Below, piece after piece: positions 32,933-46,986 of a stretch of 46,986 nt of DNA. The notes beneath the pieces are model-generated. The model saw nothing but the letters and a program-made list of their open reading frames with translations, was not told where the DNA came from and ran no database searches. This stretch comes from Mycobacterium sp. (GTDB lineage: Bacteria > Actinomycetota > Actinomycetes > Mycobacteriales > Mycobacteriaceae): positions 1 to 46,986 of the forward strand of contig RXJD01000033.1 of assembly GCA_003987775.1 (NCBI GenBank). Reading direction: 5' to 3'. Within the stretch, counting starts at the first letter, position 1, and each line of letters starts with the position of its first letter. A program made the translations under genes and the position numbers.

Positions 32933-35900
32933 TCATCGTTCGATGCCGTGGCTGTTGTCGCGGTCGCGACATTGCTCGCGTCGGGTGATCGCGTCGAGTT
33001 GGGCTGGGGTGGAGTCGACGTCGCGGAGGTGTTCGAGGAGTTCGTTTCGACGAGTGAGTAGTTCGGCGGCTTGGGTGCGCGCGCCGGTGGGGTTATTGGT
33101 TGTGGCGAGGTGGTGTTCGGCGCGGGCGATGGCAGTGCGGGGCTGGGTGGGGGCTGTGGGGGTGCCGATGTGTTGGGTGTGGGGCAGGTTGTCAGCCAGG
33201 ACGTCGAGCAGGGTGTGCGTGGGTTGGCGGTGGTTCTCGGGGGTGGTGATGAGGATGAGTTTGGTGTTGGTCATTGCGGCGGTGTGGGTGAGCCGGCGTA
33301 GTTGGTCGGAGGGGAGTTGGTCGGCGTCATCGACGATGAGCAGGGTTCCGGGTGGGAGTTTCCAGCGGTGGTTTTCGATGTGGGCTTGGGTCTGTTCGGG
33401 GGTGGCGGCGGTGTCGGCGTAGCGGTGGGTGGTGGCGTAGTCGATGGCGGTGGGGCTGGCGGGCAGGGCCAGGATGCGGTGGTTGTGGTGGTGGGCGGTG
33501 GCGGCGAGTGCGCCGAGCAGGCCGGCTTTGTCGGCGCCGGGGTGGATGTGGAGGGGTTGCACGGTGTGGATGCTGCTGGCCAGCGCGGTGACGGTGTGGC
33601 GGTGGGGTTCATCGAGGCCGGCGAGCGCGGTGGCCGGTGGGTGGTAGAGGGCGGCGGGGCTGGCGGCGCTCGCGGCGGCGAGGTAGTCGATCTCGTCGCG
33701 CAGTTGGGGCAGTTCGGCGGCCAGATCGTAAATGTGGGCGGGGTTTTCGGCGAAGGAGCGGGCGGCGATGTTTTCGGCGCGGGCGAGTTGGTTGTCGACG
33801 TCGCGGGCGTGGCGGCGGGCCGCGGTGAGGGCTTGGGTGTCGGCGTGGAGGGCTTTGGCGCGCAAGGTGTGGATGTGGCGGTCGGTGATGATGCCCTCGG
33901 CGCCGCCGGCGGTGCCGAGCAGTGCGCTACGGGCGGTGTCGAGGCGTTGGCGCGCTGTGTCGACTGCGGTGGTGATGCGGGGGGTTTGTTGGGTGATGTC
34001 GTGGTGGTGTTGTTGGTAGCGGTGTGCGGCTGCGGTGTCGCCGTGTTGGTGTGCGGCGGTGATGGCGGCATCGAGCTGGGTGAGCAGTTGGTGGTGCAGT
34101 TCTGCGGTGTCTTCGGCGTGGACCCATAGTTTGTGGGCGTGGGCGAGGGCGTATTGGTGGGGCCGCTGGTGGTGTTGGAGGCGCCGCAGTTCGGCGAGTT
34201 CGTCAGCAGCGGCGCGTTCGGCGGGTCCGCCGCCGCGCAGGATCTCTTCGGCGAGAGCTTGGGCGTGTTGGTGGGCGGCGTGGCGGCGGGCGCGTAGGGC
34301 GGGGATGTCGATGTTGTCGACGCGCTCGGTGGTGGGGGGCCGCTGGGTGGGGAGGTCGTTGACGTCGAGGCCGGCGAGGTCGTCTTCGGCGAAGCCGTAG
34401 GGGTAGTCGTAGGGGTCTGGGGGTGGTTCGTCGAGTGTGTCGGCGGGGTGCGGGACCGCGGGGGTGAACAGGTCGAGTTGTTCGACGGGTTGGGGTGTGT
34501 GGAGGTCTTCTGCGGGGTGGGGGATGTCGGGGTCGATGGTGGCGGCGCGGTGGGTGAGCAACTCGATGCGGTAGGTGAGTAGGCGGGCGTATTCGTCGGG
34601 GCGCAGGGGTGTGGTGGCGGCGATGTCGTGCAGGTGTTCGGTGGCGGCGGCGAGTAGGTCCGCGGGTGCCCAGTCCGAAGCGGTGACGGCGGCGACGAGC
34701 GCGGGCCAGGAGGGGTCGGTGATGACGGCTTCGGCGATTCGGGTGCCTAGTAGGTGGTGGAGCTCGTCGGTCCAGGCGGGCCGCAGTCTGGTGTCGGCGC
34801 GCTCCAAGGAGGGCGGCGCGAGGGTGCCGGCGAGGCGCCACCAGAGGGCGGCGGCGGCCATCTCGTCGGGCAGTGGGCCACCGGCGTTGATGGCGTTGTG
34901 CAGCAGGGTGGGGATGTCAGCGCCGGCGCGTGCGGCGTCGTCGAGGTGGGTGGCTAACCGGGGCCAGAAGGGGTCGCGGGCCAGGTGTGGGTTGGTGCGG
35001 TCGGCGAGTTGGCGCCAGCGGCCGGCGGCGTCTTCGGCGCGGGTGAGGCTGGCGTCCAGGCGGGTGTGGATGAGGTGTTGGACGGCGGCTGAGCGGCTGG
35101 GGTGTTGTTCGGGTCCGGTGATGCGGGTGTCGGCGGTGTCGACGTCGTGGGCGGCGCGGAAGACCGCGATTTCGGCCATGAGTGGGGCCCGGTTGTTCAG
35201 CAGTGGGCGCGCCCAGGTGGGTGCGGTGTCGGGTGTCCAGTGGCGGGCGGTGTCGCGGATCTGGTTGGCGAGGTCGGCGACGAGTTGGGCGCGTTCGGTG
35301 AGGTAGGGGCCCCAGGTGGGGTGGGTGGTGAGTTCGTCGGGAACGGCGGGCAGCCAGCGCAGTGGCCCGACTCGTTCGGCGGCGGTTCCCGGCGGGGTGG
35401 GCAGGCGCCATTCCAGGACTGCGGCGGGGTCGTGCGGGTCGCCCAGGGGTGTGGCTGCGGCCTGGTGCAGGGCGGCGATGGGGTCGTGGCCGTCGACGGC
35501 GAGCAGGGCCAGGTTGCGGCGCAGCACGGGCCAGGCTTGGGCGTCGGTGAGGTCGCCGCGCACGGCGGTGGCGGCGGTGTCGATGCTGGACATGATGGTG
35601 GGTCCGGCGTGTTGTTCGGCGGCTGCGGTGAGTGCGTCGGTGTACATGGCGGCGGCGCGGTGCAGTCGGGTGAAGGGGTCGGCGTCGGCGGCGGCGGCGC
35701 TGTGGGCCGATCGTTGTGCGCCGTCACGGCCAAGGATGGTGGACAGGACGTCGACGGCGGTGGGCGGGTGGGTGGCTTTGGGCGCGAGGATGCGGTGCGG
35801 GTCGGCTTCGGAGGTGGAGCCGTAGAGGTGGTTTGCGGTGCGCCCGCGGGTCAGTGCGACGTAGAGCAGTTGGCGGGAGAGCCGGTCGTTGATGACGGTG

Positions 35901-38761
35901 TGACAGGTGCCTTCGATGTGGCGGCCGCCGGCGGTCATGCCTTGGGCGGCGTTGATGGTGCTGGCGTATCCCAGGGTGGTGTAGGTGCGCGCGTAGCGGG
36001 CGGGCAGGCGCACCGGTGTGGCGTGTCCGCCCAGCGGCACCACGGTCAGCGCGCCGTCGTCGTGGACGGTGCGGATGGTCCAGCGGTGGCCGTTTTTGAC
36101 CCAGCTGCCGTTGCTGTCGGTGACCAGGTAGCGGGCGTTCTTGCGGGTGGCGATGCAGTCGCCGGCCGACGCGGTCAGCCCGTCGGCCAGGGTCACGGTG
36201 GCCGCTGAGGTGCTGTCGTGGGTGCCGGCGAGTCGGTCCAGTCGGGCGCGTTCGTTGAGTTGGGCGACGATCTCGTGGGTGGGGGCCAACAGGATGGAGT
36301 CGCGGCCTGCGGCGCGGTCGGCTGCCCACGCCGCATAGGCCATGTCGGCGGCGGTGTCGTCGGCTCCGACGTGGACGCGGTGGTGGTCGATGTAGAAGCC
36401 GATACCGGCGGGGTCTCCGGCGCGGATGGCCAGGCTGGCGGCGGCTTCGGCGTTGCCGGTTTCGGGGTGGGTGAAGCGCACGACGGTGTTCAGGGTGACC
36501 GCGTTGCGGCGGTCGGCGAGGTCGCGCAGGATGCCGCCGGCGGAGATGGATGCCAGTTGCTGGTCATCCCCGACCAGGCGCACGCTGGCACCGCGTGCCA
36601 GCGCGTGGGAGATGGCGGTGTCCAGGTCGAAGGTGGACGCCATGCCGGCTTCGTCGACGATGAGCAGGGTGTCTGCGCTGATGGTGTCGAACCATTGTCG
36701 GGCGGGGTCGTCGTCGGGGGCGTGCGGTTCGCTGCGGGTGCCGGTGAGCTGGACGAGTTTGGCGATGGTGTCGGTGGCTGCGCCGAGGTCTTCGGCCAAG
36801 ACTTCGGCCGCTCCGGCGGTGGGGGCCAGCCCGATCACGGTGCCGCCGCTGTTGCGCCAGGCCGCCGCCAGGGCGGCCATGGCGGTGGTTTTGCCGCTAC
36901 CCGCTGGGGCCAGTGCGAGCTGCACGCGGGCACCGGAGGTGGCCATGTCCTTGACCAGTGCGGTTTGTCCGTCGTTGAGCGCCAGACCGGTGTTGGCGTG
37001 GGTTTCCAGCAGCGCCAGCCCGATGCTGTCGTCGTCGACGGTGCGGCCGTCGCGCCGCGTGGCGGCGGCCAGGATGCGCCGCTCGGCGGCCATGACGTCG
37101 GTGCTGGTGTAGACGGTGGAGTCATGGCGGGTGTAGACGCTGGCACCGTCGATGCGGCGCAGGACGGCGGGCTCGTTTTTCTCGGTGTCGGCGTGGCTGG
37201 TCAGCGCGATACTGTGCTCGCCCAGGGCGGTGGCCACGATGCGGTTGACCAGTTCGGGACCGCCAGGGTGGTGTTCGTAGCGCAGTTGGCGTTGGGCTTC
37301 GGCGCGGACGTGGTTGACCGTCCACGTGGCGCGGGTTTGGGCGACGTTGTCGATGACCTGGGCGGCTTGGGTGCTGATCCATTGCGTGGTGATCTGGGCC
37401 CGCACCGGCGGGTCGCGGCTGGTGACGTCGGCGATCATGTCGGTCACGGCGCGCTGGCCACCGAGGACGCCGATCGCTTGGCCGCGCCAGGTGTGGCGTT
37501 GCTCGCCTCGTGAGCGCGGTTCGTGTTTGGCTTGCCGGGTTTCCAGGGTTGCCTGCTGGGACAGTGCGAGCATCTCCACGGCGGTCGGTTCGCGGCCGTG
37601 GGCGGTGTGGAATCGTTTGGCCAGCTGCCCGACTCGGTGGTCGATCGCGGTGCTGCGCGAGGAGTACGCATCGAGGAGTTCCTCGGGGATTCCGTCGATT
37701 TCACGCACCGGGCGCTTGCCGCGTGTGGCCGCTCTGGCCGCAAACCGGACGCCCAGTTTGTCGATAAGTAGGGACTCGATGCGGGTGTTGTAGAACTCGG
37801 AGGCGGCCACCGTGGCATGGTGCAGCGGAGTGCCGTCCAGGGCCAGCCAGCGGGGTACTCCGTCAGCGCCGATGACCTGCACCTTGTTGCTGATGACGAG
37901 GTGGGTGTGCAGGTTGGGGTCCCCGGCGCGGGAGTCGCGGTGATCGAATGCCGCTGCGATCAATCCGGTGGTGTTGACCTGGGCGACACCGTGGGCTCCC
38001 ATGCGCGAGAACGCCGCATTGTCTTCCAGGAAGGCCAGGGTTTCGGCGACCGCTTGGTGGTGGCAGTCCTCGAGGGTGCGCGCGATCGGCGCCGGGGCCA
38101 CCGCCCACAACGCTGACACCGATTTGACCGGGGTGAAGGTGAGGTCGTAGCCGGCCACGGCGGTGGTCGCAGCCCGCGACTGGCGGGCGATGAACCCCGA
38201 CAGTTCGCGGTCGTCAGCTGGTGGCCGACTATAGGTTTCAGCGAACAGTTCCTTCCCTACCGCAGTGCGGATGCGGGCGCGGAGCTCCGGGTCCAGGCCG
38301 GCCTTCGGGTCGGCGGCGGCGGCGATGTTGTAGTCGCGGTAGGCCTGCCGCAAACGGGTGCTGAACCGGTTGTCCTTGCTGCTGATCGGGAATGGGCGAC
38401 CCAGCCGTGCCGCCGCCAGCGCGCCCGCCTTACCTACCCCGAGCCCAGTCAGGTGGCGGGTGATCCGATCGGCGTTGGGGTGCAAGCCTTCCCCGAACAA
38501 CGCCTTCATCTGGTCCTCGCTGACCTGTGAGCCGTGCTCGACTCCCCAATACTGGGCGACCAGGGGATCGCAGGCGTCCCGCGAGACCGGCTTGCCCAGC
38601 GCGGCCAGGCCGCGACCCATCCACACACCCGGGGTTTCACCTTTGGCGCTGTAGTAATCGGCCAGGCTCGGCCTGCCCCGATCGGTGGCATCCGAGGCGG
38701 CGACCTGCCGGATCAGGTACATGTACCCGTCTCCGGCGGTCAACTTGTGCAAGCCCATCAC
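32933..38761 (-). CDS. MobF-family conjugative relaxase-helicase (TraA/TrwC-like)
   Basis: 1,942 residues. The N-terminal TrwC-type relaxase has candidate catalytic tyrosines Y36-Y37 (ADYYSAKGETPG), the helix segment YDLTFTPVKSVSALWA (~205-220) and the HUH metal site H274…H285-T-H287 (DPNLHTHLV). A RecD/TraI-type helicase follows, with Walker A APAGSGKTT (618-626) and Walker B LLIVDEAGM. The long His/Ala-rich C-terminal region is coiled coil plus a second P-loop-less ATPase-like stretch (LLIVDDADQ). It nicks oriT, stays on the 5' end and unwinds the plasmid. Start GTG 38761 or ATG 38758. Confidence 0.93.
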   Translation of the reverse strand: MMGLHKLTAGDGYMYLIRQVAASDATDRGRPSLADYYSAKGETPGVWMGRGLAALGKPVSRDACDPLVAQYWGVEHGSQVSEDQMKALFGEGLHPNADRITRHLTGLGVGKAGALAAARLGRPFPISSKDNRFSTRLRQAYRDYNIAAAADPKAGLDPELRARIRTAVGKELFAETYSRPPADDRELSGFIARQSRAATTAVAGYDLTFTPVKSVSALWAVAPAPIARTLEDCHHQAVAETLAFLEDNAAFSRMGAHGVAQVNTTGLIAAAFDHRDSRAGDPNLHTHLVISNKVQVIGADGVPRWLALDGTPLHHATVAASEFYNTRIESLLIDKLGVRFAARAATRGKRPVREIDGIPEELLDAYSSRSTAIDHRVGQLAKRFHTAHGREPTAVEMLALSQQATLETRQAKHEPRSRGEQRHTWRGQAIGVLGGQRAVTDMIADVTSRDPPVRAQITTQWISTQAAQVIDNVAQTRATWTVNHVRAEAQRQLRYEHHPGGPELVNRIVATALGEHSIALTSHADTEKNEPAVLRRIDGASVYTRHDSTVYTSTDVMAAERRILAAATRRDGRTVDDDSIGLALLETHANTGLALNDGQTALVKDMATSGARVQLALAPAGSGKTTAMAALAAAWRNSGGTVIGLAPTAGAAEVLAEDLGAATDTIAKLVQLTGTRSEPHAPDDDPARQWFDTISADTLLIVDEAGMASTFDLDTAISHALARGASVRLVGDDQQLASISAGGILRDLADRRNAVTLNTVVRFTHPETGNAEAAASLAIRAGDPAGIGFYIDHHRVHVGADDTAADMAYAAWAADRAAGRDSILLAPTHEIVAQLNERARLDRLAGTHDSTSAATVTLADGLTASAGDCIATRKNARYLVTDSNGSWVKNGHRWTIRTVHDDGALTVVPLGGHATPVRLPARYARTYTTLGYASTINAAQGMTAGGRHIEGTCHTVINDRLSRQLLYVALTRGRTANHLYGSTSEADPHRILAPKATHPPTAVDVLSTILGRDGAQRSAHSAAAADADPFTRLHRAAAMYTDALTAAAEQHAGPTIMSSIDTAATAVRGDLTDAQAWPVLRRNLALLAVDGHDPIAALHQAAATPLGDPHDPAAVLEWRLPTPPGTAAERVGPLRWLPAVPDELTTHPTWGPYLTERAQLVADLANQIRDTARHWTPDTAPTWARPLLNNRAPLMAEIAVFRAAHDVDTADTRITGPEQHPSRSAAVQHLIHTRLDASLTRAEDAAGRWRQLADRTNPHLARDPFWPRLATHLDDAARAGADIPTLLHNAINAGGPLPDEMAAAALWWRLAGTLAPPSLERADTRLRPAWTDELHHLLGTRIAEAVITDPSWPALVAAVTASDWAPADLLAAATEHLHDIAATTPLRPDEYARLLTYRIELLTHRAATIDPDIPHPAEDLHTPQPVEQLDLFTPAVPHPADTLDEPPPDPYDYPYGFAEDDLAGLDVNDLPTQRPPTTERVDNIDIPALRARRHAAHQHAQALAEEILRGGGPAERAAADELAELRRLQHHQRPHQYALAHAHKLWVHAEDTAELHHQLLTQLDAAITAAHQHGDTAAAHRYQQHHHDITQQTPRITTAVDTARQRLDTARSALLGTAGGAEGIITDRHIHTLRAKALHADTQALTAARRHARDVDNQLARAENIAARSFAENPAHIYDLAAELPQLRDEIDYLAAASAASPAALYHPPATALAGLDEPHRHTVTALASSIHTVQPLHIHPGADKAGLLGALAATAHHHNHRILALPASPTAIDYATTHRYADTAATPEQTQAHIENHRWKLPPGTLLIVDDADQLPSDQLRRLTHTAAMTNTKLILITTPENHRQPTHTLLDVLADNLPHTQHIGTPTAPTQPRTAIARAEHHLATTNNPTGARTQAAELLTRRNELLEHLRDVDSTPAQLDAITRREQCRDRDNSHGIER

Positions 38762-39003
38762 CGCGGCATCACCTCAGCCCGAAAACTATGGGGGGCCTAC
38801 CCCTTAGGCCTGGGCCGTTATAAAACCGTGACCCTGAGTGCAAGAGGTGTGATGTTCGGCCGTAGGGAAAAGTTAGGGCACCCTAAGTGCCGTTCGGGGC
38901 GGCGGTGAGCGATCGGGTGCGAAGCCCGGTGATGGGTGCGGTCGGAAAGATTTTTGGCTTGCGTTGCGGCGCTGGGGGGTTGGTGGGGCTTAGCGTGTGA
39001 TCC
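38762..39003. other. Candidate origin of transfer (oriT)
   Basis: The non-coding gap between the divergent relaxase gene and a small DNA-binding-like gene. It contains two inverted repeats: GGCCTA/TAGGCC (38794-38799, 38805-38810) and TTAGGG/CCCTAA (38873-38878, 38881-38886), with an AT-rich TTATAAAA between them, unusual in this GC-rich region. MobF plasmids usually carry oriT near the relaxase gene. Promoters for both flanking genes should also be here; TAGCGT 7 nt before ATG 39004 suggests a leaderless transcript. Confidence 0.5.
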
Positions 39004-39534
39004 ATGGCGAACACAGTGATCAGCAAGCAGGCCCGCCGCGCCGCGCGCGAGGCCGCCAGCGCCGCCCAGGACGACGTGGTGCGCCGCACCCGGGCCAACG
39101 TCGAGGATCTGGGACGGTATTTCTCGGCCCGCGAGCGCGTCGAGGCCGTCGACGGGTGGCTTGCGGCGCGTCAGCAGGTGTTGCGCGAGGACGCCGAGCG
39201 CCGCCGCGGCGCGCAGCGCGTGGTGTGCGGGCAGGCGCTGGCGGCGATGCGCGATCGGGGGGAGCCCCTGCGTGAGATCGCGCGGATGGCCAAGCTCTCC
39301 GAAAAGCAAGCCCGCGAACTGATTCGGGAAGCCGAGGCTGCCGCGCAGAATGCCACGCCGCCGGCCGCGGACGAGTCGGCAACGGCGGCGCAGCCGCCGG
39401 CCGCTGACGACGCGGCGGCACAACCAGCCGCTGACCCTGCCGGCGGTGCCGTCGAGGCGAACGGGGCGGCGGCAGACGCGATCCGAAGCGGGGCCGCTGT
39501 GAAGGCGCTGGCGCCGTCATCGGCGACGGCCTGA
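39004..39534 (+). CDS. HTH-like small protein next to oriT candidate
   Basis: 176 residues. Charged, helical N-terminal half (Arg/Ala/Glu-rich), then REIARMAKLSEKQARELIREAE, which looks like a helix-turn-helix, then a disordered Ala/Pro/Asp tail. Position beside the oriT candidate suggests a relaxosome accessory protein; inferred. Probably leaderless from a TAGCGT box. Confidence 0.6.
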   Translation: MANTVISKQARRAAREAASAAQDDVVRRTRANVEDLGRYFSARERVEAVDGWLAARQQVLREDAERRRGAQRVVCGQALAAMRDRGEPLREIARMAKLSEKQARELIREAEAAAQNATPPAADESATAAQPPAADDAAAQPAADPAGGAVEANGAAADAIRSGAAVKALAPSSATA

Positions 39535-39619
39535 GAAGGTCCGATGTCGGTGTACGCGGCGAGGATGGGTGCGGGTGCGGCAACCGGGCCGCTCGCAGGC
39601 ATCGAAACGCAGTGGGGTC

Positions 39620-40144
39620 ATGGGACGTTCGCAACCGCTACAACTGGTCGTTGATCCGGTCGCGCATGCCGAGGAGTTGGCGCGCTTTGCCGCCCACGTG
39701 GTGCGCGGCCCCGGAGCGGAGGATTGCGCGATCTGGACCGGCGCGGTGGGAACCGACGGCTACGGCAGGTTCTGGGTCGGGCGCGGGTCGGACCGGATCA
39801 TGGTGCGCCCGAACCGGTATGCGCTGGCGGCCGCATTGGAAGGCGAACCGTTGGCACCGTGGGTGCGCGCTCTGCACGGCTGCGACAACCCGGCGTGTGT
39901 GCGGGTAAGCCTGCCCGGCGAGGTTGGGTTGCTGCACATCGTGGGCGGCAGCCAGCGCGACAACATGGTGATGATGGCGCGGGCGGGCCGGGGCGGCGGG
40001 CGCGTGCCGATCCGGCAGGGCGACAACGGTCTTCGGGCGCGCCGCGAGCGGGCGGTGGCGTTACGCGAAGCGGTGCGCCACGGGTGGGACGGCGAGGCGG
40101 TGGCTGCGGCGTTGCTGGGGTCAGGAGATCCCACGTTGTGGTGA
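39620..40144 (+). CDS. HNH endonuclease-like protein
   Basis: 174 residues from ATG 39620 (GTG 39569 possible). Features: CAIWTGAVGTDGYGRFWVGR, then ALHGCDNPACVRV and SQRDNMVMMARAG, the order seen in phage-type HNH nucleases (C-x-W...GYG...HxCDNPxC...NM). It may be a nickase or homing-type enzyme, or a non-catalytic DNA-binding derivative. Ends 24 bp before a bidirectional terminator. Confidence 0.65.
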   Translation: MGRSQPLQLVVDPVAHAEELARFAAHVVRGPGAEDCAIWTGAVGTDGYGRFWVGRGSDRIMVRPNRYALAAALEGEPLAPWVRALHGCDNPACVRVSLPGEVGLLHIVGGSQRDNMVMMARAGRGGGRVPIRQGDNGLRARRERAVALREAVRHGWDGEAVAAALLGSGDPTLW

Positions 40145-40168
40145 ACCAGCGCTGGACGGTGCATCAAG

Positions 40169-40219
40169 GGGGGTGCCCGACCACAATCCCGTCGGGTGGG
40201 TCCGTGGTCGGGCACCCCC
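40169..40219. terminator. Bidirectional terminator
   Basis: A perfect 16-bp inverted repeat (40169-40184 and 40204-40219; right arm GTGGTCGGGCACCCCC) with a 19-nt loop lies between the convergent genes ending at 40144 (+) and 40232 (-). It closes the left end of the cassette array. Confidence 0.85.
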
Positions 40220-40231
40220 GGGGACCGCACG

Positions 40232-40768
40232 TTACCAGTGCAGGTTCCACCCGGGTCCGGGGTGGCTGAGGCGGTAGTGGAGGCGGTCGCGCGCCCAGGC
40301 CCCGAAGTTCTGCGAATTGGGTGTGGTGCGTTCGGATTCCACGGTCAGCGAAGGCAGCGGTGTGCGCCGCCACCCGGTGTGGTCGGCGACCAGATCGGTG
40401 TGGGCGAGGTATTCGCGCTTGTCGAGGTTGCACAGATAGCCTCTGCCGGTCGACACGGTTGCCTCGCCGAGTGGTCTGTTCGGTGCTACGCCGTCGGCCA
40501 CGAGTCTGTCGAACCGCACGAAATGGCGGTCCTCGACGAGGAAGTACAGCGCGGCCTGGTGCCCGGGATCGGGGTGGGCGTAGTCACCGGCCCAGACCAG
40601 GCGCAGGCCGCCGTCGAGAGCCAGCAGCGTGAGCACCGCAGACATCAGCGGGGCGTCGGCGCGGGTGTGCCCGGCCAGTTTGAGGCCCGAACCGTAGTCG
40701 GCGGGGTCCAGCGCGCAGACGATGTGTCCGGCGGTGTTGAGAAAGGTCGGGGTGAAGTACTCGCCCAT
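40232..40768 (-). CDS. Unknown protein, array cassette 1 (second gene)
   Basis: 178 residues from ATG 40768 with AAAGGAG 8 nt upstream. Soluble, mixed alpha/beta composition; ends GPGWNLHW. No family recognised. It follows the 113-residue gene in the R1-driven operon and ends at the 40169-40219 terminator. As part of a putative leading region it is a candidate early-expressed establishment factor. Confidence 0.75.
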   Translation of the reverse strand: MGEYFTPTFLNTAGHIVCALDPADYGSGLKLAGHTRADAPLMSAVLTLLALDGGLRLVWAGDYAHPDPGHQAALYFLVEDRHFVRFDRLVADGVAPNRPLGEATVSTGRGYLCNLDKREYLAHTDLVADHTGWRRTPLPSLTVESERTTPNSQNFGAWARDRLHYRLSHPGPGWNLHW

Positions 40769-40796
40769 GAGTTCGGCTCCTTTCGGTGTCGGGGGT

Positions 40797-41138
40797 TCAG
40801 CGGACGATGCCGGCGGACAGGGTGGTGGCGGAGATCGGCTTCCATCCGATTGGGGCGACTACCCAAGCGGTTTCGCCGGTAACGACGACGTCGCCCACGG
40901 ACAGGCTGCGGTTCCCGGCCAGGCGGTAGCGCAGCGCCCAGATGTGTTCGGGGTCGTCAATGTTGAGCTGTTCGAAGACCACGTTAAGGGCGGCGTCGAC
41001 GACGGCGGATCCGGTGAGGTGCTCGGGGAGCTCGAGGTCGAAGCTTTCGGCCATGCGCAGTCGGGCGGTGGTCTCGTTGAATCCGAAGAAGCGGGCGTGG
41101 GCGTGGTTGAGGTAGACGGTGGTCCGCAGAGTGGTCAA
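40797..41138 (-). CDS. Unknown protein, array cassette 1 (first gene)
   Basis: 113 residues starting at TTG 41138, chosen because AAAGGA lies 8 nt before it and every other array gene has the same ribosome site; the frame is open to 41192. Sequence LRTTVYLNHAHARFFGFNE… and a C-terminal beta-rich part (GDVVVTGETAWVVAPIGW). Not recognised. Confidence 0.7.
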   Translation of the reverse strand: MTTLRTTVYLNHAHARFFGFNETTARLRMAESFDLELPEHLTGSAVVDAALNVVFEQLNIDDPEHIWALRYRLAGNRSLSVGDVVVTGETAWVVAPIGWKPISATTLSAGIVR

Positions 41139-41183
41139 GGGAAGAGTCCTTTCGTGGAAGGTTGTGTGCCGGCCGGCACGGGG

Positions 41184-41352
41184 TGTGGGCAAGCGGGTGA
41201 GGGTGAGCTGTCAACCCCGAAGAGTCCGGTGGTGGAGCCGGCGGATTTGTCGCCCGCGAGCGCAGCGAGTTGGTAGGGCGGCAAATGTCCTCCGCCGCCG
41301 GCGCCACCGGCGGGCGTGGGTGGACAGCTCGGGCCCCCGCCCGGTTAGCGTG
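41184..41352 (-). promoter_or_regulatory. R1: palindromic promoter element (candidate ssDNA promoter)
   Basis: Copy 1 of a five-copy element. Left arm (minus strand) GGGTTGACAGCTC pairs with right arm GGGTGGACAGCTC (from 41318). On the right arm TGGACA (41321-41326) is followed after 19 nt by TAGCGT (41346-41351), while the left arm has no TAnnnT at that place. The centre (~41225-41312) is a second palindrome. Directs the 41138/40768 genes if folded as single-stranded DNA. Confidence 0.5.
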
Positions 41353-41460
41353 TGCGCCCCGTCGAGCGGCAAATCAAGGTGAGTGGCTACGCAGGTGGCC
41401 GCCGCTGAGGCGGCCCGCCCGCGCGCCGTCAGGCGCGGCGGTGAGGCCGGAAGAAAAGGG

Positions 41461-41501
41461 GGGCCCGGCCAACCCCGGTGTGTGGGGAGCTGGCCGGGCC
41501 C
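41461..41501 (-). terminator. Terminator of DUF932 gene
   Basis: An 11-bp stem (41461-41471 GGGCCCGGCCA with 41491-41501) starts 12 bp after the stop; on the minus strand it is followed by CCCTTTTCTTCC. Same design as the other array terminators. Confidence 0.8.
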
Positions 41502-41513
41502 GGGCGGGTCGGG

Positions 41514-42557
41514 TTAGAGCGTCTGCAGCATCCGGAAGCCTTGGGCTTTGAGCGAACTGGTGCTGGCGGCGCTGGCGATGTTGCGCAGCGCGCGGGCGGT
41601 GGCCGCGTCACTGCTGGTGCGGGCACCTCGGACCGGGACGTGATGATCGAGGTATTCGGTGACGGCGTTGTAGGCCGCCCACCGGGTTCCGGCGATCGGG
41701 GTGAGGGTCGGCGAGAACGTCCACAGCTTCACGATGCCGCCCGCCCGTTCGCGGCGGTGCCGGCGGGTCGCGGTGCTGCTGGCGGCGTCGACCTCGAACA
41801 ACTGGTGAGCGAAGTCGCGGACCTGATCGGTGTCCATCTCGCGGGCATACAGCGCTGCCGCTTCAGCCTCGAACGCCTGGGCGTAGCGCCAGGTCAGTTT
41901 CAGCGCCTTACGGGCCTCCAAGATGGCCGCCCGGGCCCCTCCGGTGTGCCGGATTCCCCAGCTGGCCTTGGCATCCCGCAACGCCGCCGATTGGGTGTTG
42001 GCGCACACGATCCGGATCGGGGTGATGAGGAAGGTGAACTTCGAGGACCCGTCGTGGGAATTCAACGCCGCCAGATAGAGCTCGGTGCGGTCTTGGGTGC
42101 CGTCGCGGCCGTCGAACACGATCGCCTCGGGCAGCTTCATGGTGACGAAGGTTTCCCGCCCGCCGCGCAACGCTCCGGCGGTCTCGAAGTGCGCCCCGCT
42201 TTCGTCGACGAGGGCGTCGAGCAAATCACACGACGCCTCGTTTTGGACGGGCTCGTACTTGCTGCCCACCACGCCGAGGACATCCAGGCGCCCGTTGATG
42301 GGGTTGGTGCGCACGGTGGCGTAGAAATCGGGCACCGCCAGGGGTTCGGGTGCGGTGACGCCGCTTTCGTCGATGACGGGCTCCTGGGGCACCTGCAAGG
42401 CCATCTTGCGGACGTTCCAGCCGGCCAGGTGGGCGGCGTCGAGGGCTTCGCGTGCGGTCATAGTGTGGCCGACGGTTTGGCCCAGCCGGTGCCAGTGGTC
42501 GCTGCGTGAGTTGGCGAAGGATGCGATGCCGCCGGTGATGTCGAGTTCGTGTGCCAT
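41514..42557 (-). CDS. DUF932 / TIGR03299-type phage-plasmid protein
   Basis: 347 residues from ATG 42557 (GAAAGGA ribosome site). The frame is open to 42932 but that part lies in R2. The N-terminus MAHELDITGGIASFANSRSD, the WHRLGQTV motif and the central SHDGSSKFTFLITPIRIVCANT are characteristic of DUF932. Biochemical role unknown; members are common near plasmid transfer origins and in phages. Driven by R2 and closed by the 41461-41501 terminator. Confidence 0.9.
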   Translation of the reverse strand: MAHELDITGGIASFANSRSDHWHRLGQTVGHTMTAREALDAAHLAGWNVRKMALQVPQEPVIDESGVTAPEPLAVPDFYATVRTNPINGRLDVLGVVGSKYEPVQNEASCDLLDALVDESGAHFETAGALRGGRETFVTMKLPEAIVFDGRDGTQDRTELYLAALNSHDGSSKFTFLITPIRIVCANTQSAALRDAKASWGIRHTGGARAAILEARKALKLTWRYAQAFEAEAAALYAREMDTDQVRDFAHQLFEVDAASSTATRRHRRERAGGIVKLWTFSPTLTPIAGTRWAAYNAVTEYLDHHVPVRGARTSSDAATARALRNIASAASTSSLKAQGFRMLQTL

Positions 42558-42603
42558 GAGGGTGTTCCTTTCGGGAAACGGTGTCGTGGTGCGCCGGTCG
42601 GCG

Positions 42604-42804
42604 CAGGGGTGCTTGCAAGCGGGTGGGGGTGGACGGTCAACCCCGAAGAGTCCACGGCGGGTGCTCGCCGGGTTTTCGGCCCGCGCCCGCCCGGCGCGCA
42701 GCGCCACCGGGCGGGCTGGCATAGGGCCGAAAACGGTCACTCGGGACGGCGATGCCCGACCGTGGGCGTGGGTTGAGCGGACGGGCCCCCACCCGGTTAC
42801 CATT
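42604..42804 (-). promoter_or_regulatory. R2: palindromic promoter element (candidate ssDNA promoter)
   Basis: Copy 2. The right arm has TTGAGC (42773-42778), a 19-nt spacer and TACCAT (42798-42803). The left arm, read on the minus strand, starts GGGTTGACCG and shares CCCCCACCCG with the right arm, but shows CTTGCAAGC where the right arm has the -10. The central part differs from R3/R4, yet is again palindromic (TTTTCGGCCC … GGGCCGAAAA). Precedes the DUF932 gene. Confidence 0.5.
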
Positions 42805-42921
42805 CGCGCCCTGCTGACAGGCAAAAAAGTTGAGGGACTACGGATTCCGCGACGCCACGGGCGGCAGCGACAGGGACTTCCTACGGCGGCTGGCCGGGGG
42901 TGGGGCCGGAAGAAAAAGGGG

Positions 42922-42962
42922 GGCCCGGCCAACCCCCGAGTGTGAAGGGTGCTGGCCGGGCC
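42922..42962 (-). terminator. Terminator of the 105-residue gene
   Basis: A 10-bp stem GGCCCGGCCA (42922-42931) with TGGCCGGGCC (42953-42962); on the minus strand followed by CCCCTTTTTCTTCC. Confidence 0.8.
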
Positions 42963-42977
42963 GCGGGTAGATCGGGT

Positions 42978-43295
42978 TCAGGTCAGGCCTGCGGCGACCA
43001 GGGCACGCCGGATGGCGGCCAGGTCGGCGATGGTGTCGTTGAGCATGGCCCAGGTCTGCCAACCGCGCAGGGCGGCGTCGACGTCGGTGTGTGCGACGCG
43101 GGGGCGGGTGAGCGCTTGGGTGCGGCCGTGGTCGGGGCGGCGGGTGTCGTCGATGACGGCAACGAGTTGGCCGGTTCCGTCGAACAGGCGCGGGTCACCG
43201 GGGGATGCCCAGTTGAGTTGGAACCGCAGCTGGCGGGTGATGTTGTCGGCCGGGTCGACGAAGTCGAGGGCCAGTCCGTAGTCGATGTCGGGCAT
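42978..43295 (-). CDS. Unknown small protein, array cassette 3 (second gene)
   Basis: 105 residues from ATG 43295 with AAGGAG 9 nt upstream; the open frame extends to 43571 but overlaps the next gene. MPDIDYGLALDFVDPADN at the N-terminus, beta-rich middle, helical C-terminus. Not recognised. It has no R element of its own: a hairpin separates it from the upstream gene, so it may depend on read-through. Confidence 0.7.
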   Translation of the reverse strand: MPDIDYGLALDFVDPADNITRQLRFQLNWASPGDPRLFDGTGQLVAVIDDTRRPDHGRTQALTRPRVAHTDVDAALRGWQTWAMLNDTIADLAAIRRALVAAGLT

Positions 43296-43330
43296 GAGAG
43301 ATCTCCTTGAAGCGGTTGGGGTATGGGAAA

Positions 43331-43360
43331 CCCGGCCCGCCGAGGGGCTGGCGGGCCGGG
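43331..43360 (-). terminator. Hairpin downstream of the 161-residue gene
   Basis: A perfect 11-bp stem (43331-43341 CCCGGCCCGCC with 43350-43360), 8-nt loop, followed on the minus strand by TTTCCC. Lies in the 89-bp gap before the 105-residue gene; probably a partial terminator. Confidence 0.65.
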
Positions 43361-43384
43361 CTGTGGGGTCGTCGGTGGGTGCTC

Positions 43385-43870
43385 TTAGGCGGCGCGGCGG
43401 CGGTGGTGGTCGACCAGGTGCTCGATCGCGTCGTCGAGGGCGTCGTAGTCGGTCGGGCGGTGGTCGTCGATGGTGGTGGTCCACAGCGGGTCGTCGGCGT
43501 CGTCGAGTTCGTCGCCGGTAGCGGCGGCCAGGCGGTAGGTGTGGCCAGCGGCGGCCGCCGACCAGGCCCACTTGTTCTTGGGCAGGGCGTGGAAGGTGAG
43601 GTCGCCGGCGCGGACTTTGAGGATCCGGGTCACCGGGCGGGTGTGCAGGTCCGGTGTGGTGGCTTCGACGGCGGCGAGCTGGCCGTGGGCGTCGGTGGCC
43701 AGCAGGATCAGGCGGTGCCCACCGGTCGCGGTGCGTTCGTGCACGGTAGTCAGTGCGATGTCACCGTGGTTGTGCGCGGCGATGCGGGTGATTCCGTAGG
43801 CCTGCTCGGCGATGCGGCCCGCGGCCTCGTCGCACAGGTTGAAGGCGTGCTCGAATTCTGAGATCTCCAT
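43385..43870 (-). CDS. Unknown protein, array cassette 3 (first gene)
   Basis: 161 residues from ATG 43870, with GGAGA 9 nt upstream. Acidic and His-rich; the N-terminus EISEFEHAFNLCDEAAGRIAEQAYG is helical, the middle beta-rich, the C-terminus DYDALDDAIEHLVDHH acidic. The acidic character would suit a DNA-mimic or binding role, but no family is recognised. The leader is nearly identical to that of the DUF4192 gene (see R4). Confidence 0.7.
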   Translation of the reverse strand: MEISEFEHAFNLCDEAAGRIAEQAYGITRIAAHNHGDIALTTVHERTATGGHRLILLATDAHGQLAAVEATTPDLHTRPVTRILKVRAGDLTFHALPKNKWAWSAAAAGHTYRLAAATGDELDDADDPLWTTTIDDHRPTDYDALDDAIEHLVDHHRRRAA

Positions 43871-43920
43871 GGTCGTGTTCTCCGTTCGCTCAACGTGATT
43901 GGCTGCGCCGGTCAGCGCTA

Positions 43921-44095
43921 GGGGTGCGGTCAATCGGTCGAGGGTGGGCTGTCAACCCCGAAGAGTCCGGTGGTGGTGCCGGCGGATTTTCGGCCCGCGA
44001 GCGGCAGCGAGCTGGTAGGGCCGGAAATGTCCTCCGCCGCCGGCGCCACCACCGGGCGTGGGTTGACAGGTCGGGCCCCCGGCCGATTAGGCTGC
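43921..44095 (-). promoter_or_regulatory. R3: palindromic promoter element (candidate ssDNA promoter)
   Basis: Best-defined copy. The right arm has GGGTTGACAG, with -35 TTGACA 44063-44068, a 19-nt spacer and TAGGCT 44088-44093. The left arm on the minus strand reads GGGTTGACAG and then CCGATTGACCG. The arms thus pair over the -35 and over CGATT but not over the -10. The inner palindrome spans 43967-44055 (CCGGTGGTG … CACCACCGG). Precedes the 161-residue gene. Confidence 0.55.
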
Positions 44096-44209
44096 GCCCC
44101 CTTGCTGACGGCAAAAAGGTGAGGGGCTGCGGATTACGCGACGCCACGGGCGGCAGCGGCAGGGGTTTCCTCCGGCGGCTGGCCGGGGGTGGGGCCGGAA
44201 GAAAACAGG

Positions 44210-44248
44210 GGACCGGCCAACCCCCGTGCGGTGGGAGTTGGCCGGTCC
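44210..44248 (-). terminator. Terminator of DUF4192 gene
   Basis: A perfect 12-bp stem GGACCGGCCAAC (44210-44221) with 44237-44248; on the minus strand followed by CCTGTTTTCTTCC. Confidence 0.8.
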
Positions 44249-44262
44249 AGGCTTGGTGGTGA

Positions 44263-45231
44263 TCAGTCGGTGTCGGGGGTGCGGGGTTCGGTGGCGGCGA
44301 TGAGCGCTTGGCTGATCTTTTCCGGTGAGAGCCCGGCACGCAGTGCGGCCGAGAGCAGACCGGCCAGGTGCGGCTCGGGTGTGTGGCTGGTGTGGGCTTC
44401 GTCCAACGCGGCGTCGAGGGCGATGCCGGCGCGCACGGTGTCCCCGTTCAGGCACAGGCAGGCTGCTGCCACGGTGAGGGCTTCGGCGCGGGGTGCTCCG
44501 CGCAGTCGGCGGGCGATGTGGGTCCACAGGTCCGCGGCGTATTCGGGGGTGTCGACGGCCAGCCCGATCATCGCGTCGCGCAGGGCGGGGTGTGCGGTGA
44601 TCAGGATGCCCGCGCGGGTAGCCAAGGTTGGATTCGTGATGGGCCCACCGGCCAGGGCGGCGGTGATCTCCTCGACGGTCGCTGCGACGAGGCGGGCGTG
44701 GTCGCCGACTGTGGCGGGCGGCGCGGGGGGCAGTGGACTGAATTCGTCCTCGATGTCGCTGCGGTTGGCGCGGATGGTGTGGCCGCGGTGGACGAGCTGG
44801 GCGGTGAGCACGGCGTCGGTGTAGGGGTAGGTGGGTCCGTACTGGCCGGTGTCGATGTCGAGCCACTGGCCAGCCTCGGTGACGTCGCGGGTGTACAGGC
44901 AGCGCAACACCTCGATGTTGATGGCGCGCAGCGCGTCTCGGGTGGCTTCCAGTAGGTGGTGGGCGTGGGTGTCGTGGGGTTGGTCGCAGACCGCGAGGAT
45001 GATCGCGGCGGCGAAGTTCCCGGCACGCAGGTTGCAGGTGGCGGGTAAGTTGGTGGCTTGCTCGGTGCTGTTGGTGATGTCGAAGCGGGCCGCGCAGCGC
45101 ACCCCAAGACCGGTGGCGGGATGCTGGTGCAGCAGGTAGACCACGATGCTGTTGGTGGGAACGAATCCGAGCAGGCCGGGTGCGGCGGCGACGATGTCGG
45201 CGGTGGTGCGCAGTGCGTTGAAGTTCTCCAT
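44263..45231 (-). CDS. DUF4192 family protein
   Basis: 322 residues from ATG 45231 (GGAGA upstream). The N-terminal LLGFVPTNSIVVYLL and the following GVRCAARFDI are the hallmark of DUF4192, an actinobacterial family of unknown function; the C-terminal ~130 residues are a helical repeat-like domain (RAEALTVAAACLCLNGDTV…). Driven by R4 in the leading-region array. Confidence 0.88.
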   Translation of the reverse strand: MENFNALRTTADIVAAAPGLLGFVPTNSIVVYLLHQHPATGLGVRCAARFDITNSTEQATNLPATCNLRAGNFAAAIILAVCDQPHDTHAHHLLEATRDALRAINIEVLRCLYTRDVTEAGQWLDIDTGQYGPTYPYTDAVLTAQLVHRGHTIRANRSDIEDEFSPLPPAPPATVGDHARLVAATVEEITAALAGGPITNPTLATRAGILITAHPALRDAMIGLAVDTPEYAADLWTHIARRLRGAPRAEALTVAAACLCLNGDTVRAGIALDAALDEAHTSHTPEPHLAGLLSAALRAGLSPEKISQALIAATEPRTPDTD

Positions 45232-45281
45232 GGTGTTCTCCGTTCGGTGAAGGTGATTGGCTGCGCCGGTCAGCGCTAGGG

Positions 45282-45452
45282 GTCGGGTCAATCGGGTGAG
45301 GGTGGGCGGTCAACCCCGAAGAGTCCGGTGGTGGGGCCGGCGGATTTTCGGCCCGCGAGCGCAGCGAGCAGGTGGGGCCGCAAAATGTCCTCCGCCGCCG
45401 GCGCCACCACCGGGCGTGGGTTGACAGGTCGGGCCCCCGGCCGATTAGGCTG
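45282..45452 (-). promoter_or_regulatory. R4: palindromic promoter element (candidate ssDNA promoter)
   Basis: Copy 4, closest to R3. Right arm TTGACA 45421-45426, 19 nt, TAGGCT 45446-45451; left arm on the minus strand GGGTTGACCG, then CCCGATTGACC. R3 and R4 also share the leader segment CTGCGCCGGTCAGCGCTAGG, pointing to duplication of promoter plus 5' UTR. Confidence 0.55.
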
Positions 45453-45565
45453 CGCCCCAAGCTGACGGCAATAGAGTTGAGCGGCTACGGATTACGCAAC
45501 GTCACGGGCGGGCGGCAGCGCAGCCCGGCGGCAGACCTGGCCGGGTTGTTGGCCGGAACAAAAAG

Positions 45566-45608
45566 GGGCCCGGACAACCCCCGGTGTGGTGGGGAGCTGG
45601 CCGGGCCC
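45566..45608 (-). terminator. Terminator of the Cys-rich gene
   Basis: An 11-bp stem with one mismatch (45566-45576 with 45598-45608); on the minus strand followed by CCCTTTTTGTTCC. Begins 4 bp after the stop codon of the gene. Confidence 0.75.
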
Positions 45609-45612
45609 GGTG

Positions 45613-45957
45613 TTAGAACAGGCGCCCGGCGCGGTGTGGGTCGTTGTGGCAGGGGCAGCCGCAGCGCCAGCAGAAACCCGGCAGGGACAGCTTGAGCAGG
45701 ATGCCGCCTTCGTGCGGGCCGCCGAGGCGATGCGCGCACTGATCGTGGCGGCCCTGGTCGCACGTTTTTGTCGGTGCGTTCTCGGGCATTTCGACGATGA
45801 CGGGGGCGCCGTTGATTTCGTCGGGGAAGGTGATCCAGCGGCGCCGGGTGACCAGGCCGAGGTGGCGTTCTTCGCGGAAGGCCACGGTGGCGCGGCGTTT
45901 GAGGCGCTGGATCGGCGCGGCGGTGGTCGCGGCCCATTGTTCCCAGAATTCGCTCAT
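45613..45957 (-). CDS. Small Cys-rich, probably zinc-binding protein
   Basis: 114 residues from ATG 45957 (GAAAGGA ribosome site). Basic N-terminal half; the C-terminal half has C66, C74, C96, C99, C101, C103 plus several His (CDQGRHDQCAH and GFCWRCGCPCHND), consistent with one or two zinc sites. Function unknown. 28 bp downstream of the 113-residue gene and probably co-transcribed with it from R5. Confidence 0.7.
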   Translation of the reverse strand: MSEFWEQWAATTAAPIQRLKRRATVAFREERHLGLVTRRRWITFPDEINGAPVIVEMPENAPTKTCDQGRHDQCAHRLGGPHEGGILLKLSLPGFCWRCGCPCHNDPHRAGRLF

Positions 45958-45985
45958 TCTTCGTCCTTTCGAAGTGCGGCCGGGG

Positions 45986-46327
45986 TCAGGACCGGTCGGT
46001 GATGTGTTGGGTCAGGGCGTAGGCGGCACGGCTGAGCCGGAGGCTTTCGGTGATGAAGGCGGCCACGTCTTCGCCGGTGGTGGCTTCGGTGAACTCGACG
46101 TCGTAGACCTGGTCGCTGAGCAGGGCGCTGACCGCTGTGTGGGCTCCGGTGAGTGCGCTCAGGGCGGTGTTGAGGCTGTTGACGAGTTGGGTGCGGTGGT
46201 GTTCGATTTCCAGATCCCAGTCGGCGTAGAGGTTTTCGGCATCGGCGTCGCTGCCCGCAGCGGGCGGCTGGTGCGGGTCGTGGTCGGTGCTGGTCCACGG
46301 GTCGATGGTGTGCTCGGTGGTGTTCAT
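45986..46327 (-). CDS. Unknown small acidic protein, array cassette 5 (first gene)
   Basis: 113 residues from ATG 46327 (AAAGGA ribosome site). Acidic, disordered first ~40 residues, then two long helices (NSLNTALSALTGAHTAVSAL and EDVAAFITESLRLSRAAYAL), a hairpin-like fold. Not recognised. Confidence 0.7.
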   Translation of the reverse strand: MNTTEHTIDPWTSTDHDPHQPPAAGSDADAENLYADWDLEIEHHRTQLVNSLNTALSALTGAHTAVSALLSDQVYDVEFTEATTGEDVAAFITESLRLSRAAYALTQHITDRS

Positions 46328-46365
46328 GGTCAGGATTCCTTTGCGGTAGTGGTGATCTGCGCCTG

Positions 46366-46560
46366 GTGGCGCGGGCTTCGGGGGACCGGTGGGGTGGCGG
46401 TGTCAACCCCGCAGAGGCCGGCGGATCAGCAGGAGGCGGCCCCGGCCGCCGGTGCCGCACGGGCGCAGCGGGAGCCCGCCCGTCAGGGCGGCGGGAGCGT
46501 AGAACGGGCGAGCCCGCCGGGTGTGGGTTGACAGCGACGGGGTCCTCACCGGTCATACTT
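46366..46560 (-). promoter_or_regulatory. R5: palindromic promoter element (candidate ssDNA promoter)
   Basis: Most diverged copy. Right arm GGGTTGACA (-35 at 46528-46533), then CACCGGT and CATACT (46554-46559); left arm on the minus strand GGGTTGACA, then CACCGGT followed by CCCCCG. Arms pair at -35 and at CACCGGT but not at -10. Precedes the 113/114-residue gene pair. Confidence 0.45.
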
Positions 46561-46649
46561 GCTGCCCGCTGACAGGCAAAAATGTTGAGCGGCTTCGGAT
46601 TCCGACAGCAAACCTCTGGCCGGCTCGCGCCGGCGGGTATTGTGGTCAC

Positions 46650-46790
46650 ATGGTCGAGAACGCGTTGCGACAATTGATGCTCGAGGAGCCGAATCAGGTT
46701 CCGGTGGCACTGGTGACTTGGGTGGTCACCGGCGAGTGGCCAGCGCACCAATCGCGTTGCGACATCGCAGTGTGCGAATTGCCGTATTAG
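46650..46790 (+). CDS. 46-residue protein, probably leaderless
   Basis: ATG 46650 follows TATTGT (46638-46643) by 6 nt, a classic leaderless mycobacterial arrangement. The product MVENALRQLMLEEPNQVP… ends with an AVCELPY tail. The frame is open further upstream (46521) through R5, but that part lacks a ribosome site. Function unknown; it is the first plus-strand gene right of the array. Confidence 0.45.
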   Translation: MVENALRQLMLEEPNQVPVALVTWVVTGEWPAHQSRCDIAVCELPY

Positions 46791-46844
46791 TTTGCGCCGC
46801 GCCTGTGCTCAGGTGGCTATTGGCGGGCGGTACAGGTAGGGCTT

Positions 46845-46872
46845 CCCCGCATCGGGGCACCTCGCTCCGAGG
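46845..46872. other. Two tandem small hairpins
   Basis: CCCCG-CAT-CGGGG (46845-46857) and CCTCG-CTC-CGAGG (46860-46872) lie back to back after the 46-residue gene. They may be a terminator or the start of another regulatory region. Confidence 0.35.
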
Positions 46873-46942
46873 AACTGCACCCGGCATGAACAGCGCCGTA
46901 ATGCCAGGATCTCGCTAGCTACTTCGACCTGAAAAAGGGTTG

Positions 46943-46986
46943 ATGGCGACGGCTTCGTCGGTGGCAGTGACGGCGGGTGCTCGGTG
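46943..46986 (+). CDS. Possible start of a gene running off the window
   Basis: ATG 46943 is preceded by AAAAAGGG; the frame (MATASSVAVTAGAR…) is open to the edge. Too short to assign. Confidence 0.3.
   Translation, partial: MATASSVAVTAGAR

Follow-up and report, generated by a model that had tools for sequence, protein, structure and literature searches.

This study asks how a series of operons can be expressed when the promoter motifs that precede them lie on the opposite strand and point away from the genes. The locus that raises this question belongs to the window, a stretch of 46,986 bases that is contig 18 of the 7.29-Mb, 114-contig genome of a Mycobacterium sp. Rightward of a gene encoding a TrwC-type (MOBF) relaxase-helicase, it carries five related inverted repeats, R1 to R5, each bearing a -35 and a -10 motif on the plus strand next to genes of the minus strand. 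We propose, with a probability of roughly four in five, that R1 to R5 are single-stranded-DNA (ssDNA) promoters belonging to the leading region of a conjugative MOBF plasmid of mycobacteria, their promoter activity being predicted from sequence and structural models.

A covariance model built on 29 diverse members of the family finds five copies in the whole genome, all of them in the window. Its matches, which define the boundaries given in Table 1, agree with the first-pass annotation of this DNA, which had described five copies of one element, each directly 5' of a minus-strand operon. The -35/-10 pairs sit on the right arms, and the motifs read there earlier, including their 19-20 nt spacers, are correct at all five. 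The predicted folds display the pairing of the arms over GGGTTGACA and over the block preceding the -10 that had been described, and they add an overlooked outer stem beyond the -10 (GTCAGC with GCTGAC). The arms pair around a central palindrome, and the pairing extends past the -10 into this outer stem. The plus-strand fold z averages -4.7 over the 29 diverse members (range -9.2 to -0.6); R3, with a z of -7.6, folds far better than its shuffles. A AAGGTGAGGGGCTACGGAT-like motif is conserved just 3' of the hairpin (44113-44133 in the window and equivalents).

The predicted fold presents the promoter motifs in a characteristic manner. Among 73 members (the non-redundant list of 76 minus L014, whose arms were mis-anchored, L020:15525, which is short, and L024, whose anchor was off), the mean probability of being unpaired is 0.08 over the -35, 0.06 over the five bases before the -10, 0.41 over the -10 and 0.73 at the A of position -11, the value for the -10 exceeding that for the -35 in 72 of them. 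The first-pass expectation of a paired -35 and a -10 in a bubble therefore stands for the paired -35 and the mismatched -10, the opening itself being often of a single base; the -10 bubble of R3 is larger than usual. That the -10 is confined to the right arm is borne out by a [TC]AnnnT located at 14-22 nt in 73/73 right arms and in 0/73 left arms read leftward (8% of shuffled right arms carry one). Furthermore, the spacer, mostly 19-20 nt on the right arm, is 17 nt on the left arm, i.e. on the would-be template, in 47 of 69 members and 16-18 nt in 66 of 69, four of the 73 having no usable pair. Bulged bases, which were not in the first-pass annotation, shorten this template-side spacer, and a duplex promoter would not need a template-side spacer of 17 nt. 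On the minus strand of the element regions, TAnnnT occurs 6 times for 32 expected (one of the six lies in the R5 region, at 46501), versus 58 for 43 expected on the plus strand. This depletion makes a leftward duplex promoter unlikely, as had been surmised from the five copies. A conventional sigma-70 scan of 40144-46986 with 16-18 nt spacers gives 0 sites (shuffles 0.5).

The covariation of the arms in homologues, which the first-pass annotation had set as a check, is found in the 29-member alignment, where 57 of 80 pairs have changed on both sides. The covariation score reaches 0.267, versus 0.140 for shuffled alignments (0/500 reach the observed value) and 0.064-0.099 when the partners are slid. 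As the structure is the average of single-sequence folds, it inflates the share of paired cells, and double changes are the better measure. A first covariance model, based on the 20-pair structure produced by RNAalifold itself (14/20 double changes), was replaced by the averaged-fold model, and RNAalifold on separately aligned arms was unusable because of the linker.

The strand that folds can be approached through mismatches. A G.T mismatch on one strand is an A.C on its complement, and the strand that needs to fold shows more G.T. On the plus strand of 61 members, the pair columns that are mostly Watson-Crick contain 174 G.T versus 28 A.C; counted as column states, these are 42 versus 16 (p 4e-4), and the 29 diverse members give 76 versus 15. 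As a control, changes were tallied column by column according to whether they lead to G.T (C to T or A to G) or to A.C (G to A or T to C): the former stand to the latter as 204:172 in paired columns, 144:138 in unpaired ones and 142:133 on the right flank, and the 29-member set gives 112:129 for paired and 66:38 for unpaired columns. Since changes in the two directions are balanced, the G.T excess is not due to mutation bias. Changes toward A.C occur with a change of the partner, i.e. are compensated, and changes toward G.T are tolerated, which fits folding of the plus strand. The aligned sequences thus point to selection for folding of the plus strand, an argument strengthened by the column control.

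The family is present on mycobacterial MOBF plasmids such as pRAW, pMK12478, pMyong1 and pMAH135, and diverged copies occur on plasmids from Gordonia, Rhodococcus and Arthrobacter/Paenarthrobacter. The homologues at the same position on other mycobacterial plasmids that had been anticipated thus exist, including on pRAW, which is described among the plasmids whose conjugation requires type IV secretion genes and a relaxase (PMC4791881). A megablast of the region against PLSDB returned 30 records, 29 of them mycobacterial, and a phage search with R3 gave no match. A strict inverted-repeat scan, whose threshold was above the arm scores, made no detections. In a laxer scan the gaps of the leading region were prominent among many chance peaks (shuffles reach 31.2), and detection was therefore moved to nhmmer and the covariance model. 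The comparison set comprises 18 stretches from PLSDB records (L001-L018), seven more (to L025) and the plasmid F. A right-arm profile finds 114 places in 19 sequences (the window and L001-L018), 114/114 on the plus strand, a single plasmid stretch holding as many as 13 of them; its matches also include hairpins of Gordonia, Arthrobacter and Paenarthrobacter plasmids and a single copy, whose fold is poorer, on a Rhodococcus plasmid. With the covariance model, 131 places are recovered across 26 sources, the 29 members used to build it included, and 130 of these places are on the plus strand; the lone minus-strand place (E 0.02) overlaps a true element. Using strict filters, sampled genomes were found to carry the element in 17 of 148 cases within the genus, 33 of 301 within the family and 2 of 396 within the phylum, both of the latter from the same genus.

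The placement of the elements relative to genes is almost invariant. In the 13 sequences with gene tables, the left neighbour is a minus-strand gene for 92 of 93 elements, and its annotated start lies at 24-41 nt in 85. Among the eight others, five annotated starts fall inside the left arm, one lies at 78 nt, one element has no listed gene nearby and one is overlapped by a small plus-strand ORF; two of these exceptions, both in the window, disappear when translation is taken to start at the ATG at 43870 or 45231. The gene order of the window (a minus-strand relaxase gene, two plus-strand genes, then minus-strand genes) recurs in 14 stretches (L001-L008, L010, L013, L016, L018, L022 and L024), and L012 and L017 lack the two plus-strand genes and otherwise have the same order. 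This order is not universal, as in L014 (Rhodococcus) the relaxase gene is followed by genes of either strand, and L025 (Paenarthrobacter) has a MOBP relaxase and mixed-strand genes; the remaining comparison stretches hold no annotated relaxase. The element of L025 (14879-15059) is carried by a plasmid typed MOBP and MPF_T, and the family may thus not be tied to MOBF relaxases. To the left of this element and of the Arthrobacter element L021:14879-15059, there is a leftward stretch resembling a ribosome-binding site followed by an ATG, with no minus-strand gene listed.

Wherever element and TrwC gene share a contig, they lie on opposite strands, in 75/75 cases on 19 contigs, although some contigs are probably close to named plasmids and the 75 elements are therefore not all independent. 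This count adds a first set (27/27 on 9 contigs; 24 of the 33 family genomes with matches examined) to a second one (48/48 on 10 contigs; 12 of the 17 genus genomes examined, three of the others belonging to the first set). In one sampled genome (G796:C4, around 1.02-1.03 Mb), five elements lie beside a TrwC relaxase gene on a contig of more than 2 Mb, which suggests an integrated conjugative element or plasmid. In the window, a candidate core of the origin of transfer (oriT) was recognized left of the array by an alignment of eight plasmids (Table 1). Its motif AAGAGGT[GT]TG[AT] occurs in 14 of 26 sequences (the window and L001-L025), always on the plus strand and never on the minus strand; the core is absent from L012, L014, L017 and L022 despite their relaxase. 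Its plus strand resembles, over GGTGT-G, what we take to be the nic motif of F, which F carries, oriented as expected, around record position 66160. This resemblance is suggestive only, and the core is a lead to the nic site rather than a nic map. As in the placement of a Frpo-type promoter, known from F and discussed below, the elements lie to the right of the oriT candidate and beside minus-strand genes.

The mechanism that we propose would operate as follows. The relaxase would nick near 38.82-38.86 kb and the plus strand would enter the recipient with its 5' end leading, whereupon each of its R regions would fold into a long hairpin. The right arm, its -35 paired and its -10 mismatched (usually open at the A of -11), would act as the non-template strand, and the left arm, with a spacer of about 17 nt, as the template. 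RNA polymerase carrying the main sigma factor would initiate in the hairpin and run off the base of the stem into the single-stranded 5' flank, and the transcript would be the mRNA of the adjoining operon, ending at the terminator. Second-strand synthesis would then remove the hairpin, and, as the leftward strand of the duplex has no -10, the genes would fall silent. The sequence of the elements, their predicted fold, its covariation, the strand-specific pairing and the placement are established, and the transferred strand, the use by polymerase, the timing and the silence in duplex DNA are what we infer from them.

Several observations weigh against this proposal. R5 taken alone folds weakly (z -1.7; 11 of 200 shuffles equal it). 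The mean probability of being unpaired over the -10 exceeds 0.4 in only 34 of 73 members, the commonest loops over it are single mismatches (1x1 in 16 cases and 1x0 in 14), and its first position, -12, is a C in 23 of 73. The model assigns no role to a G[GT]TGAG motif that 64 of 74 elements carry right of the stem; this motif could be a binding site for a protein or a primase, or the start of a rightward RNA. The plus strand as the transferred strand presupposes a nic left of the array. Among the 24 genomes of the first set that match the model, eight have no TrwC match, and in several others TrwC lies on another contig; the link with MOBF does not explain them. Lastly, raw fold energy alone is weak evidence for the folding strand. 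The plus strand is more stable than the minus strand in 61/61 gap-trimmed members, but it is so throughout 39001-46986 (mean -8.1, sd 4.7; 71 windows, elements included), and plain energy was accordingly demoted as a strand test. The plus-minus difference of the elements is -12.7 kcal/mol versus -6.8 in their own shuffles, composition thus supplying -6.8 of it. In favour of the proposal, this difference goes beyond that of the shuffles in 27 of 29 members, and z is lower on the plus strand in 26 of 29.

The same data bear on other explanations. The right arm could be an ordinary duplex promoter reading rightward into a short conserved RNA, with the palindrome as its operator, an alternative that speaks against ssDNA promoters and draws on the -35 and [TC]AnnnT present on the plus strand in 73/73 members and on the conserved sequence right of the stem (64/74). 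We nevertheless regard it as improbable: the spacer is mostly 19-20 nt in duplex DNA and 17 nt on the template side of the fold, the pairing passes the -10 into the part that would be transcribed, the leftward gene lies at an almost constant distance and one strand is selected to fold. The constant position 24-41 nt 5' of the first gene's annotated start (85/93) is also what would be expected from a structured leader, such as an attenuator or riboswitch, of a leftward mRNA whose promoter lies further right. Such a leader would carry the minus-strand sequence, yet it is on the plus strand that G.T is tolerated; moreover, no Rfam family matches at the gathering score (two sub-threshold matches have E 0.38 and 0.71) and minus-strand TAnnnT is depleted over the element, which leaves this explanation very little room. 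An equally slim chance can be given to a single-strand initiation site that primes second-strand synthesis, gene expression being a by-product. The title of the Frpo paper of Masai and Arai (1997) reportedly names both transcription and primer RNA synthesis, and priming is compatible with ssDNA promoters rather than exclusive of them; one copy per operon, a nearly constant distance to the start codon and up to 13 copies per stretch are more than priming needs. The long inverted repeats in many intergenic copies might also recall a cruciform or protein-binding palindrome of duplex DNA, or a mobile repeat with no role in expression, which is the least credible of all given the excess of G.T over A.C where a cruciform has no strand preference, the fixed orientation (114/114, and 75/75 relative to the relaxase gene) and a -10 more open than the -35 in 72/73.

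The array consists of short units. A 306-kb M. paragordonae plasmid contains a stretch with 99.7% identity to positions 38500-46986. Rightward of the relaxase gene, the window displays a gap with the conserved block, two plus-strand genes and then minus-strand operons up to the end of the window (Table 1). Terminator-like hairpins on the minus strand, missed by the first-pass annotation, end four of the five operons, so that the typical unit consists of an element, one or two genes and a terminator. The stretch contains 7 terminator-like sites, both strands together, for 3.6 expected, and refolding part of R1 and four terminator regions gave modest z values only (-1.1 to -2.5). In the R5 operon, the gene 45613-45957 has no Pfam match and neither gene has a PHROGs match. 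Beside the oriT candidate, the plus-strand gene 39620-40144 has PHROGs matches to HNH endonuclease families. The leading genes of pMK12478 include those for a DUF3560 protein and a trypsin-like protein, the functions of the array genes being mostly unknown.

Table 1. Features discussed in the text; positions refer to the window unless a comparison stretch is named.
Feature	Position	Strand	Details
R1	41161..41374	+	covariance model 172 bits; -35 TGGACA 41321-41326; -10 TAGCGT 41346-41351; spacer 19
R2	42586..42826	+	162 bits; -35 TTGAGC 42773-42778; -10 TACCAT 42798-42803; spacer 19
R3	43900..44117	+	216 bits; -35 TTGACA 44063-44068; -10 TAGGCT 44088-44093 (fold bubble); spacer 19
R4	45258..45474	+	193 bits; -35 TTGACA 45421-45426; -10 TAGGCT 45446-45451; spacer 19
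R5	46354..46581	+	64.5 bits; -35 TTGACA 46528-46533; -10 CATACT 46554-46559; spacer 20
TrwC-type (MOBF) relaxase-helicase gene	32933..38761	-	Pfam TrwC E 2.5e-83
Candidate oriT core	38815..38860	+	conserved CGTGACCCTGAGTGCAAGAGGTGTGATG, flanking repeats of the TTAGG...CCTAA type; 8-plasmid alignment
Two-gene operon beside R1 (40797-41138, 40232-40768), function unknown	40232..41138	-	ORFs and M. paragordonae plasmid annotation; no Pfam match
DUF932 gene beside R2	41514..42557	-	Pfam PF06067 E 1.8e-60
Two-gene operon beside R3 (43385-43870, 42978-43295), function unknown	42978..43870	-	ORFs and annotation; no Pfam match
DUF4192 gene beside R4	44263..45231	-	Pfam PF13830 E 1.7e-44
Two-gene operon beside R5 (45986-46327, 45613-45957), function unknown	45613..46327	-	homologous-plasmid annotation
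Terminator-like hairpin 3' of DUF932 gene	41460..41476	-	
Terminator-like hairpin 3' of R3 operon	42919..42937	-	
Terminator-like hairpin 3' of DUF4192 gene	44210..44248	-	
Terminator-like hairpin 3' of R5 operon	45564..45582	-	
Second hairpin class	L004:24858; L011:22214/23686/25397; L012:28698/30169/31887; L017:27238/28729/30447		
Second hairpin class, continued	L001:30298/32292; L005:27342; L007:27534; L010:26223; L018:23682		

A second class of hairpins, unrelated in sequence (CTTTCTGGC ... GCCAGAAAGG), was observed, in most cases immediately ahead of distal minus-strand genes, parB-like ones among them. All 16 places listed in Table 1, several of them nearly identical, are more stable on the plus strand, in a comparison with no control for composition, and 12 of the 16 right arms display a [TC]AnnnT (e.g. 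CATAAT, CACAAT). On balance, we lean toward the broader view that actinobacterial MOBF plasmids have their entire leading region transcribed from ssDNA, as a regulon that evolved independently of Frpo. It would comprise at least two sequence-unrelated promoter classes, the R type near oriT and the CTTTCTGGC/GCCAGAAAGG type ahead of distal genes such as the parB-like ones, with up to 13 promoters per plasmid and conserved bulges that tune them to the main sigma factor (template spacer of 17 nt). If so, such plasmids would reach mycobacteria as ssDNA and be read there before becoming double-stranded. The ssDNA-promoter proposal would itself extend early single-strand expression during conjugation from enterobacterial plasmids to mycobacteria and other Actinobacteria. 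The operons of the array, almost wholly of unknown function, would be candidate establishment or anti-defence genes; the orientation of the elements would predict the transferred strand of plasmids for which no mapped nic was found, and the rule of bulge and mismatch would be testable in vitro.

Among known systems, the EGeRS1 regions of the Bacillus pLS20 family are, like the R-type elements, inverted-repeat regions preceding operons of Gram-positive conjugative plasmids: they are conserved over 400-600 bp before each establishment operon (PMC8708921). As reported there, a role as ssDNA promoters was rejected for EGeRS1, the fold containing no promoter and the nicked strand being the non-template one. 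In contrast, the R-type fold contains promoter motifs and the strand presumably transferred would be the template of the genes, and R1 to R5 do not match EGeRS1 on these two points.

The closest likeness is with the Frpo/ssi elements of F and ColIb-P9, which lie in the leading region, 5' of operons templated by the transferred strand (T-strand), and whose hairpin rebuilds a -35 and a -10 (PMC9849209). R-type elements likewise lie in a leading region and 5' of operons, for which the T-strand would be the template, and their predicted fold rebuilds both motifs, weakly in R5 alone. The Frpo' and Frpo* elements, which come from Salmonella, Serratia and insect-metagenome islands, were similarly identified by fold and -35/-10 consensus and extended by BLAST to 7,751 and 950 further leading-region candidates (Samuel et al. 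2024; PMC11541004). The main text of that article, its supplements lying outside, contains 0 occurrences of 'actino' or 'mycobact', and our literature search, outside of which stood preprints, most subscription papers and supplements, found no published actinobacterial ssDNA promoter. A distant blastn of PLSDB with the R3 right arm (44040-44160), used as the single query, revealed no homology to known Frpo/ssi, 42/42 records being actinobacterial.

In F too, the T-strand folds better than its complement at these places: the best-folding 300-nt windows 5' of the two operons for which Frpo1 and Frpo2 are reported have fold energies, T-strand versus complement, of -84.1/-74.9 and -82.7/-75.4 when chosen by T-strand and of -81.6/-76.8 and -82.7/-75.4 when chosen by complement, and the strand difference over a 20-kb stretch of F averages +1.9 (sd 4.4). 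The likeness also concerns gene content, as the leading region of F has DUF932, SSB and ParB-like genes and the mycobacterial arrays have DUF932, ParB-like and, in p78K, SSB genes. In F (L046), the DUF932 gene (64438-65259) is located between a hairpin (63661-63960) and oriT; its proximity to oriT in both systems may reflect convergence or a shared early gene. Unlike Frpo/ssi, the R-type elements are GC-rich, have a [TC]AnnnT -10 and a bulged spacer of 19-20 nt, reach 13 copies per stretch and belong to actinobacterial hosts. They appear, from their sequences, to be Frpo-like in architecture and in marks of selection and not Frpo by sequence, and would thus, with an activity and a transferred strand that are predicted, bring Frpo-type elements to a new phylum and to a high copy number.

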